Assembly: GCF_014698305.1 (NCBI RefSeq)
Contig: NZ_JACJST010000004.1
Coordinates: 62,001-126,000, forward strand
Length of the DNA stretch: 64,000 bases
Origin: Anabaena lutea FACHB-196
GTDB taxonomy: Bacteria; Cyanobacteriota; Cyanobacteriia; Cyanobacteriales; Nostocaceae
Direction of reading: 5' to 3'
The notes below the pieces were generated by a model. It made no database searches. It saw only the letters and a list, made by a program, of their open reading frames with translations, and was not told where the DNA came from. Shown here piece after piece: positions 13,812-51,204 of this stretch. The translations under genes and the position numbers were made by a program. Positions within the stretch are counted from its first letter, which is position 1; each line of letters starts with the position of its first letter.

Positions 13812-14255
13812 GATTGGCTAGGCAATATTGTTTAACTGTACGAATGTAATCGCTATTTATAAGCTACTGTTGATAGGTTAAAATTAGGTATTTTATTGCA
13901 TAAACACTAAAATACACTAATTTGATAGTTTTATAGTAGTATAAGAGTTACTCTTTCAGTAGTAGCCTTGATCCAATTTTACAAAAGTGGCTGTTAACGT
14001 TAATAGAGAACAGCTACTGTCCCTCAACAAAAATTTAGAGCTTTTATTGCTACCGTATATTCTTTTGTTGAAATACGGATAATACTTATAGTAATATAAT
14101 GTACAAAATATACACAGAAAGTATGATTCTCTTGTGCTGATTTACCCTTCTTTAAAAAGCCTATTCTTTTACAGTAATTTATAGCCAGAGTTCTAAGAAT
14201 TACAATCTGCATAGTAAAAATTTCTCGGAACCAATCAACTTGCTTTTTAAATTTG
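13812..14255. other. Intergenic region, nothing recognised
   Basis: About 440 AT-rich bases upstream of chrA and of the omega-RNA-like hairpins. A 62-codon minus-strand frame (14024-14212) has no family features and no ribosome binding site. The 5' part of the omega-RNA may extend into this stretch. Confidence 0.4.
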
Positions 14256-14414
14256 GCTGTGATATTTTCTACTTATGCTATATTCTCCGTAAATCCGGGC
14301 GACTTACTGGAGAATATAGCAAATTATATCACAGCAAAATGGCGGTAACCATGAGAGTACTAGAGTTTTCCTCTAGACTCTCCTTCTTCTATGTCTAATT
14401 TTGGGAAGTAACAA
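14256..14414 (+). ncRNA. Omega-RNA (HEARO)-like structured region upstream of iscB remnant
   Basis: Two nested stems and a third hairpin lie directly before an IscB-type reading frame. The outer arms are gctgtgatat (14256-14265) and atatcacagc (14326-14335), the inner arms gctatattctcc (14277-14288) and ggagaatatagc (14309-14320), all perfect. A second hairpin pairs gagagt-a-ctagag (14353-14365) with ctctagactctc (14371-14382). IscB-family nucleases are known to be encoded just downstream of their guide-scaffold RNA (HEARO/omega-RNA), so position and structure fit. I have not matched a covariance model and the 5' limit is unknown. Confidence 0.55.
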
Positions 14415-14615
14415 ATGACTAAAGTATTTCTTCTGGATGCCAATCAACAACCATTATCTCCAGTACGTATTAGTCATGCTAGGATACTGTTGTCACAGGG
14501 TAAAGCTGCGGTTTTTAAGCGATATCCATTTACCATTATCCTCAAAGAATCCTTCAACAAAATCAAGTTGGAACAATTAAGTTTCAGGATTCACCCTGGT
14601 GGTAAAACTAAGTAA
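14415..14615 (+). pseudogene. iscB: Truncated IscB/RRXRR-domain protein (N-terminus only)
   Basis: The 66 residues match the N-terminal PLMP/RRXRR module of IscB-type RNA-guided nucleases: VFLLDANQQPLSPV, then HARILLSQGKAAVFKRYPF and TIILK. Complete IscB proteins have about 400-500 residues with split RuvC and HNH domains. Here the frame stops just after the RuvC-I position, which reads RIHPGGKTK where the family has IDPG, so the catalytic Asp is His. The stop codon is supplied by an ATTCGTA heptamer array. GGAAG before the ATG is a fair ribosome binding site, so the short protein could be made, but nuclease activity is not expected. Confidence 0.75.
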
Positions 14616-14637
14616 TTCGTAATTCGTAATTCGTAAT
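14613..14637. repeat. ATTCGTA heptamer array at the iscB truncation point
   Basis: Three tandem copies (taattcgtaattcgtaattc and on) begin at the stop codon of the iscB remnant. A further GC-rich repeat phrase (gcttacggtaggctacgcc) and another heptamer follow to about 14668. Confidence 0.65.
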
Positions 14638-14755
14638 GCTTACGGTAGGCTACGCCAACGTAATTCGTGTACATATTACGTTTTTTAGTTGTTCTACTTA
14701 TAAGATAGCACCCAAAAAATTTTCAACTATTCTGCTTAAATAATTGCCTATTTTT

Positions 14756-15739
14756 TTATATTTCCATTTTTGTAAGTTGGGATTTAGCCGTATCTGGGTA
14801 ATCACTAAATACGCCATCTATACCTAAGCTAAAAAACATTTCATATTCTCCTTGAGGATTTTGTTTAAAGTCGAAAGGTAAGAAGAAATCCTCATTGCGG
14901 AATGTCCAAGCATGAACTTTCAAATTAGTTTGATGAGCATCATTTACTAACGATGTTGGAGATAGTAATTTACCATTGCTATCTTGGGGAACTACTAAAT
15001 GTTTATTTACTCCTATCGCTTGTGCATATTTAGCAATTTCTATTAACTCTGTTGGATTTACTAAATCTTGATATGTGCGATGATCACCATTAACTACAAA
15101 ATCATAAGGTTTGCCAGAATCATTAATTAATTGTACTAGAGGTAAATCTGTTTTTTTAGATAATTCTTGCAAATTACCAACTTCAAATGATTGAATAAAT
15201 ATAGGTAAATTAATTTTGTGTAAAGTTGTGAGTAACTTATCTTCTAATGGGAGACCAATTGATTTAAAGTAACTTGGATGTTTTGTTTCTGGGTAAATAC
15301 CAATAATTCGACCAAGTTCTAAACTTTTAGCTTCGGCTAAATCAATGATGTCTTGTAGTGTGGGAATGCTAAATATTCCATCATAAACTGTATTTTGCGG
15401 ACGCAGTTGGGGAATGCGCTCTTTAGCTTTCAAGGTTTTTAATTCTGCTAAAGTAAAATCTTCCGTAAACCAACCTGTTTTAATTTCACCATCAATAATT
15501 TTCGTGGTTTTCAGGTGAATAAATTCTGCATGAATAGCAATATCGGTAGTTTCTGAAATTTCATTTTCATGACGAGCAATTAAAATACCATCTTTGGTAA
15601 TAACTAAATCTGGTTCAATATAATCAGCACCTAAATTAATTGCTAATTCATAAGCAGCTAAAGTATGTTCAGGACGATAGCCACTTGCACCCCGATGAGC
15701 AATAATAATAGGACGTTGGTTTGTGGATTTTTTAGCCAT
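14756..15739 (-). CDS. Glycerophosphodiester phosphodiesterase family protein
   Basis: The enzyme family hydrolyses glycerophosphodiesters to glycerol-3-phosphate and an alcohol. The 327 aa form one TIM-barrel GDPD domain. Visible active-site elements are IIAHRGASGYRPEHTLAAY with His15, Arg16 and Glu24, then YIEPDLVITKDG with Glu42 and Asp44, and His57 in ARHENE. The C-terminal LGIDGVFSDYPDTA is also typical. No signal peptide is seen, so it is probably cytoplasmic, unlike periplasmic GlpQ. It is divergent from the vWA gene with 155 bases between the starts. Confidence 0.9.
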   Translation of the reverse strand: MAKKSTNQRPIIIAHRGASGYRPEHTLAAYELAINLGADYIEPDLVITKDGILIARHENEISETTDIAIHAEFIHLKTTKIIDGEIKTGWFTEDFTLAELKTLKAKERIPQLRPQNTVYDGIFSIPTLQDIIDLAEAKSLELGRIIGIYPETKHPSYFKSIGLPLEDKLLTTLHKINLPIFIQSFEVGNLQELSKKTDLPLVQLINDSGKPYDFVVNGDHRTYQDLVNPTELIEIAKYAQAIGVNKHLVVPQDSNGKLLSPTSLVNDAHQTNLKVHAWTFRNEDFFLPFDFKQNPQGEYEMFFSLGIDGVFSDYPDTAKSQLTKMEI

Positions 15740-49837: not shown

Positions 49838-51204
49838 ATTGCAATTTCACATACTCCCTATTAGGGATTGAAACTTTTAATTATCATTTCACCAATATTT
49901 AAACCTTTTATTGCAATTTCACATACTCCCTATTAGGGATTGAAACTACCAATTAAGTCATCACTAAATTTCAGCGCTCGGTTATTGCAATTTCACATAC
50001 TCCCTATTAGGGATTGAAACGCTAAAAGGTGAAGTTTTACTTTCTCCAGCTACGGTTCCGATTGCAATTTCACATACTCCCTATTAGGGATTGAAACTTT
50101 TGGGCGACATACCAGTCTGAGCTAAATTAGATTGCAATTTCACATACTCCCTATTAGGGATTGAAACATTCTTTTAAAATAATTGGTGGATTATTTGCCA
50201 AATTGCAATTTCACATACTCCCTATTAGGGATTGAAACAATGAATTGTCAGATTCGCAGTTAAAGTTTTGCCAATTGCAATTTCACATACTCCCTATTAG
50301 GGATTGAAACCATTTTTTCAAACCTGGTACACGGTACTCAGGTGGCATTAATTGCAATTTCACATACTCCCTATTAGGGATTGAAACGGGAATAATATTC
50401 ATAACTTGGGTCACGGTATTGCATTGCAATTTCACATACTCCCTATTAGGGATTGAAACCATCAGACTCGGATTTAAAATCTACATTTTCGCAAATTGCA
50501 ATTTCACATACTCCCTATTAGGGATTGAAACTCAGTCATTCCTGCCACGTTTTGGGTTTAGTGTTGGGCAAATTGCAATTTCACATACTCCCTATTAGGG
50601 ATTGAAACGCCGAATAACTAGCGTTTTCTGATGAGCCGCCAAATTGCAATTTCACATACTCCCTATTAGGGATTGAAACGGGTTCTCCACAATGGTTTGC
50701 TTGGCTTCTACCGTGTAGATTGCAATTTCACATACTCCCTATTAGGGATTGAAACCTTTTGCTACCTCATTTCCAAGATCGTTAGATACATTGCAATTTC
50801 ACATACTCCCTATTAGGGATTGAAACGAGAAGATTATCGAGGTCGTCCCCTCGGCTGGAATGCTTGGGTAAATTGCAATTTCACATACTCCCTATTAGGG
50901 ATTGAAACCATAGTACGAATTGCACCATTAATTCCAGTTGCCATCTGGGATAATTGCAATTTCACATACTCCCTATTAGGGATTGAAACTTTTCGGGATT
51001 CCAGATAGCAAAATAATTAGATTGATTGCAATTTCACATACTCCCTATTAGGGATTGAAACAAAAATTGAATTTCTAGAATGGACATAAAATTATATTGC
51101 AATTTCACATACTCCCTATTAGGGATTGAAACTCTGAATAACTTTCTGAACCTTACTCAAACTATTTATTGCAATTTCACATACTCCCTATTAGGGATTG
51201 AAAC
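49838..51204 (+). CRISPR. CRISPR array: 19 repeats of 37 nt, 18 spacers
   Basis: The repeat begins attgcaatttcacatactcc and ends ctattagggattgaaac; all 19 copies are identical by eye, including the last. Repeats start at 49838, 49910, 49984, 50061, 50131, 50202, 50274, 50351, 50423, 50495, 50572, 50643, 50719, 50790, 50872, 50953, 51025, 51096 and 51168. Spacers are 33-45 nt, mostly 34-35, all different. The ATTGAAAC 3' end is typical of type I and III repeats. No cas gene is in the window, so the array depends on Cas proteins from elsewhere or is inactive. The subtype cannot be fixed. Confidence 0.99.

Follow-up and report, generated by a model that had tools for sequence, protein, structure and literature searches.

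A stand-alone PLMP/RRXRR domain protein of IscB-type descent and a conserved leader element associated with sulfonate gene clusters of Nostocaceae

IscB-type nucleases are the presumed ancestors of Cas9, and the PLMP domain is an RNA-contacting part of them. In a stretch of 64,000 nucleotides of the 6.06 Mb genome of Anabaena lutea FACHB-196 (the whole stretch is called the window here), a forward-strand frame of 66 residues resembles the beginning of such a nuclease and stops at the RuvC-I position, shortly downstream of strong hairpins. The locus thus raises the question whether it is the debris of an IscB/omega-RNA element that was shortened by a repeat-mediated deletion, as one half of the original prediction had it, or whether a small RNA-binding protein is kept here together with an RNA, as the other half suggested.

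The 66-residue protein (14415-14615, ATG start and TAA stop; called mini below) was identified from its domain matches as a stand-alone PLMP/RRXRR domain. The Pfam RRXRR profile matched it with E 4.3e-15 and 56.5 bits (cut-off 25) and the NCBIfam guided_IscB model aligned over positions 1-63 of 314, confirming the proposed homology to the N-terminal module of IscB; at 58.3 bits, this second match lies far under the equivalog cut-off of 175, so that mini does not score as a complete IscB endonuclease. Comparison with the sequences of solved IscB chains gave a best E of 1.2e-5. The catalytic Asp of RuvC-I is indeed replaced by His in the window frame (FRIHPGGKTK, where full-length relatives read LRLKIDPGAKTTG), and this Asp is retained in only 8 of the 70 intact minis described below, His being found in 43 of them (window copy counted). 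A split RuvC with catalytic residues, a bridge helix and an HNH domain were all absent, each of the 70 intact copies being only 64-90 aa long.

A search of 217 Nostocaceae genomes with the 66 residues gave 73 close matches that were fetched, the window counted. Intact short minis were found in 70 of these genomes, in one copy each and always ATG-started, and three further copies (L136, L138 and L139) are broken. Among the matches listed, those with 63-97% identity are short frames; after a gap come others at 45-57%, most of which belong to frames of about 440 aa. When 24 minis were placed in a tree with 16 full-length N-termini, a branch supported at 100/99 set all 24 minis apart from the rest, in an alignment of few columns. 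An order-wide search of 388 genomes gave, among the matches listed outside Nostocaceae, identities of at most 57% apart from one of 58%; the majority belong to frames of about 400 aa, and a few are short (65-179 aa). All matches in a plasmid scan were below 60% identity and, among those listed, mostly annotated as IscB. A scan of named genomes found 46 cyanobacterial mini loci in Nostoc, Desmonostoc, Cylindrospermum, Calothrix, Amazonocrinis, Dendronalium, Anabaena and Tolypothrix, and one distant match outside cyanobacteria, in Thermotogae. Some Nostocaceae carry about 20 full-length IscB-type copies per genome (among the matches listed, 22 in G102 and 18 in G085), as if recently amplified. 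Separately, the L010 region, which was fetched as a match to the HNH part of the IscB model, encodes a protein starting MGKVLVLNASYEPLN that resembles the start of mini (31 residues, E ~3e-4), which hints at a PLMP-like start there too.

Selection on mini was estimated in 17 representatives over their first 58 codons (136 pairs), the three broken minis being left out. Silent sites were near saturation (mean pS 0.69), with a mean pN of 0.13 at replacement sites, and the median dN/dS was 0.10 in the 69 pairs with dS <2, the 67 pairs with dS >=2 or saturated being excluded. Across the 70 copies, 22 of 58 positions are invariant, including P13, L14 and P16 of the PLMP motif. These codon comparisons indicate that mini is under strongly purifying selection across the clade. 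Neither the relaxed selection nor the isolated occurrence of a pseudogene was seen at this dN/dS and with this many intact copies, a comparison with little power for the window copy alone. Between the window genome (G000) and its sister genome G004, 4 of 197 sites changed in mini and 5 of 164 in the upstream leader element described below, whereas the flanks changed at 29 of 424 and 13 of 129 sites. Of the four changes in mini, two are replacements and two are silent, too few for dN/dS alone to show constraint on the window copy, and a nearby 98-aa frame is equally slow in the same comparison (dS 0.04). We are highly confident that mini is a domain protein derived from IscB that stands alone and is under selection. 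The notion of a one-off relic shortened through repeat-mediated deletion is not supported, the 70 intact copies being uniformly short and under purifying selection and the 24 in the tree forming a single clade.

The stop codon of the window frame does lie inside a heptamer array, as had been proposed, the TAA being supplied by the GTAATTC repeats at 14612-14637 (forward strand). At the equivalent site of G004, the neighbours match those of the window and the stop codon is identical, with fewer repeats. Tandem TAATTCG-type arrays also occur at 2291, 19281 and 44589 of the window, showing the heptamer to be a repeat that is common and dispersed here. Longer forms of mini share a C-terminal stretch resembling KIGIDVxRFPKRGxR that is absent from the window copy. 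Since relatives are also short and the tail is variable, we rejected the idea that the heptamer made the protein short; its effect was confined to trimming that tail. Heptamer-rich sequence resembling these arrays also trails the mini genes of many relatives. A repeat array of another kind, at 49838-51204 of the window, is a CRISPR array with 19 repeats that matches Rfam CRISPR-DR5.

In relatives, mini is part of a sulfonate-type gene cluster with the order SsuA, SsuD-like, mini, cupin, class II aldolase, second SsuA and nitroreductase-like protein. Both SsuA proteins and the class II aldolase scored over their cut-offs, the alkanesulfonate-monooxygenase-like protein scored under its cut-off, and the cupin gave weak cysteine-dioxygenase-type Pfam matches. 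In 11 loci, the stop codon of mini abuts the cupin start or overlaps with it. The gene content of the cluster varies, ssuA1 being present in 14 loci. Mini is a domain of IscB-type descent that many Nostocaceae keep at 64-90 aa within a sulfonate cluster, at the head of which stands a conserved leader. From the window site, the cluster has been lost, and the leader and mini, 32 bases apart, are the surviving unit: the cupin is absent at E 1e-20 from both G000 and G004, the SsuD-like protein is absent from G000 at E 1e-10 and has one distant 35% match in G004, and a class II aldolase homologue (74%) lies elsewhere in both genomes, on another contig in the window genome. Six loci in all (the window, G004, L113, L114, L118 and L124) have the leader and mini, and their fetched flanks contain no other cluster gene, with an aldo-keto reductase additionally beside them in L118 and L124. 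The minis of the last four of these loci likewise have a dN (0-0.10) well below their dS (0.08-0.62). The reverse also occurs, mini being lost or broken in several genomes where cluster genes remain (L136, L138, L139, G110, G148 and G111). At L217 (G110), L218 (G148) and L241 (G111), cluster genes stand with only a remnant of the C-terminal tail of mini before the cupin, and the N-terminal part of mini has apparently been deleted; both the remnant and this reading are weak for L217.

A cluster of this type has been studied in another context. According to the accessible part of PMC7784912, deletion of the alkanesulfonate monooxygenase gene Npun_F5882 of N. punctiforme abolished feathermoss colonisation, and this gene is predicted to share an operon with sulfonate transporters. 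Npun_F5882 is likely the ssuD of a mini-containing cluster, a candidate identity. The accessible part of PMC7784912 mentions neither the mini gene nor the leader, and we found no description in print of the neighbours of Npun_F5882.

The leader (14240-14403, forward strand) was delimited with a covariance model (R1) and homologous leaders, and consists of a promoter-like 5' part followed by a putative structured RNA. R1 matched the window leader with 150 bits and E 8.6e-24, a match by construction since the window row is among the 22 used to build the model. Iterated profile searches together with the covariance model recognised the leader in 63 of the 73 mini loci (62 of 72 excluding the window), so that we rejected the idea of a sequence unique to the window site. 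It lies either 1.6-3.2 kb upstream of mini, before ssuA1 or ssuD, or else within ~1 kb of mini. When whole genomes were scanned and the best 13 candidates of each were scored, 65 of the 217 genomes had leader matches at E <=1e-6, and 63 of these carry mini or a broken mini. The other two have tail remnants, a clear one in G148 and a weak one in G110 (11 residues immediately before the cupin, E 0.95). About 35 weaker matches away from mini loci (42-51 bits, E 2e-5 to 1e-3) are likely due to chance. The leader was unrecognisable in ten of the 73 mini loci (L078, L127-L129, L131, L132 and L134-L137), none of which has ssuA1, so that some minis persist without a leader. At L127-L137 (genus g6), minis retain the RuvC-I Asp, mostly lack a leader and have the aldolase as the sole cluster gene alongside.

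Could this leader be an omega-RNA (HEARO), as the original prediction proposed for the hairpins? It is likewise structured, lies upstream of the frame and has a hairpin near a start codon. The Rfam model RF02033 was silent at E 10 over 13830-14760 of the window and, at E 0.5, in the six relative loci examined out of 72; in a positive control, the same model matched 37 of 60 relative genomes, 28 of them over cut-off. Genome G072 has an intact mini and a leader and zero HEARO matches, and the window genome has two sub-cut-off HEARO matches, along with a longer RRXRR frame, elsewhere. The leader also differs from a HEARO in its usual place, which precedes ssuA1 at 1.6-3.2 kb from mini. We therefore rejected the identification with omega-RNA. 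Of the predicted "minimal RNA plus RNA-binding-domain unit", the conserved structured element upstream and the small protein stand, the latter close to our best reading, but the RNA is not HEARO by Rfam.

The predicted hairpins themselves are present. Stable arms pair 14251-14265 with 14326-14340 and 14276-14288 with 14309-14321, and a further hairpin at 14353-14382 ends 32 bases before the ATG. Arm search, folding and pair counts describe the first two as a long stem system on the forward strand (14256-14335), with GCTGTGATAT/ATATCACAGC as outer stem (14256-14265 with 14326-14335) around the inner one, and the third is a terminal hairpin, P3, of the form GAGAGTACTAGAG-loop-CTCTAGACTCTC (forward strand; pair counts). 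As RNA, 14249-14402 folds at -54.1 kcal/mol, with a z of -7.8 versus 200 shuffles. Paired cells amount to 90% for the outer stem, 83% for the inner stem and 98% for P3 in 22 leaders, and to 85%, 75% and 94% in 52 rows, a count from which 13 of 65 distinct leader sources had been dropped as truncated, split or with rearranged ends; variation in P3 consists mostly of G-U pairs. Outer P2 pairs fail in most of the 52 rows, and the long outer stems are less well supported than P3. In the RNAalifold consensus of the leaders, the terminal hairpin and a helix of 3 pairs were all that remained and compensatory pairs were absent, and pairs changed on both sides of the drawn structure were not in excess (4 vs 3.4 in shuffles).

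Structure near a start codon recurs in the conserved leaders: each of the 14 ssuA1 loci has, downstream of P3, an AAGG(A/G)G Shine-Dalgarno sequence in a small hairpin and then a TTG in frame with ssuA1. Measured against mononucleotide shuffles, this small hairpin stood out clearly for five leaders (0-6 per 1000 shuffles as good) and moderately for one (37), and it was no better than shuffles in eight Nostoc-type leaders (66-217 per 1000). In the window, a candidate Shine-Dalgarno-masking pair seen by eye, CTTCTT (14383-14388) with GGGAAG (14403-14408) on the forward strand, ends six bases before the mini ATG; it is absent from the minimum-energy folds of the window leader, and its position corresponds to that of the small hairpin in the 14 ssuA1 loci. 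A conserved TTGCTT/TGTGATAAT stretch of the leader resembles an extended -10 promoter, and since the 5' part is promoter-like, part of the conservation may act at the DNA level. A promoter and terminator scan of the window called no site at the leader, this stretch included, and no terminator-like site.

What could such a protein do beside such a leader? The predicted fold of mini, a low-confidence AlphaFold model (pLDDT 63), found IscB PLMP domains as its best matches, with Z from 5.9 to 4.8 and, at the top, 1.2 A over 44 residues; IsrB followed with Z 4.7 and the N-terminal domain of IF3 (1tif) with Z 4.5 and an rmsd of 7.6 over 63 residues, all for this same model. In the accessible parts of PMC9640706 and PMC9581776, the PLMP domain is described as touching the terminal hairpins of omega-RNA in IscB and IsrB, and that of IsrB as also contacting the Shine-Dalgarno sequence; the accessible part of PMC9581776 relates the PLMP fold to the N-terminal domain of IF3. 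We infer by analogy that mini binds RNA. These contacts and the fold match led us to propose that the mini protein would grip the leader RNA near P3 and the Shine-Dalgarno region as PLMP grips the terminal hairpin of omega-RNA, that this binding would tune translation of the sulfonate cluster, and that mini would also tune its own translation where the leader adjoins its gene.

Mini shares with IscB and IsrB (NF040563, PF14239) a homologous PLMP domain, including its invariant motif and matching fold, but lacks RuvC past the first strand, the bridge helix, HNH, WED and TI domains, and it is a vertically inherited single-copy gene in a metabolic cluster rather than a mobile element. It weakly matches the N-terminal domain fold of IF3 but has no IF3 C-terminal domain and only ~10% sequence identity. 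TldR is a TnpB-derived regulator that retains guide-RNA-directed DNA binding. Like TldR, mini is a transposon nuclease without the nuclease, kept as a host gene; unlike TldR, it keeps only the RNA-contacting PLMP domain.

Weighing these readings, we regard a small IscB-derived regulator with the leader as its RNA target as a serious possibility that falls somewhat short of probable. Mini may instead be selected in the sulfonate cluster and bind some other RNA, a partner enzyme or, with its IF3-N-like fold, the ribosome. The leader would then be an independent promoter, attenuator or riboswitch of the operon, and both would simply travel with it. This account is possible, if somewhat doubtful: the ten mini loci without a recognisable leader, the leader and cluster genes kept without an intact mini in G110 and G148, and the IF3 N-domains among the fold matches speak for it, but it does not readily explain why the leader and mini were left together in six loci whose fetched flanks contain no other cluster gene, or why 63 of 65 strong leader matches fall in genomes with mini or a broken mini.

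Alternatively, mini might serve resident OMEGA elements as a decoy or accessory, with omega-RNA bound in trans and full-length IscB blocked or modulated. Its domain is the omega-RNA-contacting part of IscB, and the window genome has its HEARO matches and longer RRXRR frame, but the mini gene belongs to a metabolic operon rather than adjoining IscB, and G072 would offer such a decoy no recognisable HEARO; we consider this improbable. Similarly remote is a decaying IscB/omega-RNA relic in the window genome, truncated by heptamer-mediated deletion, to which one may count the frame end at RuvC-I inside a heptamer, a copy shorter than the 83-90 aa forms, the vanished cluster and the few changes relative to G004, but against which stand the shortness of every intact relative, the strong purifying selection across the clade and the lack of HEARO matches at the window locus and at the six relative loci, which leaves at most the narrower claim that the window copy may recently have become dispensable. 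The most specific version of the regulator reading has a transposon nuclease reduced to its PLMP domain, which became a dedicated regulator of translation that clamps a conserved leader hairpin and the Shine-Dalgarno sequence of the sulfonate operon serving Nostoc in its plant-associated life; leader and mini would have outlived this operon as a free-standing RNA-protein module in the window, the sister species and part of another genus. We hold this version to be rather unlikely as it stands.

In the part of the open-access literature covered, we came across no report of a PLMP/RRXRR protein that stands alone. If the proposed reading is true, the PLMP domain is able to exist as an independent protein, and OMEGA parts would be shown to become host regulators without nuclease or guide. 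For a sulfonate cluster of the kind that is reported, in the accessible part of PMC7784912, as needed for moss colonisation, the locus further offers a protein amenable to experiment and a new candidate leader RNA.
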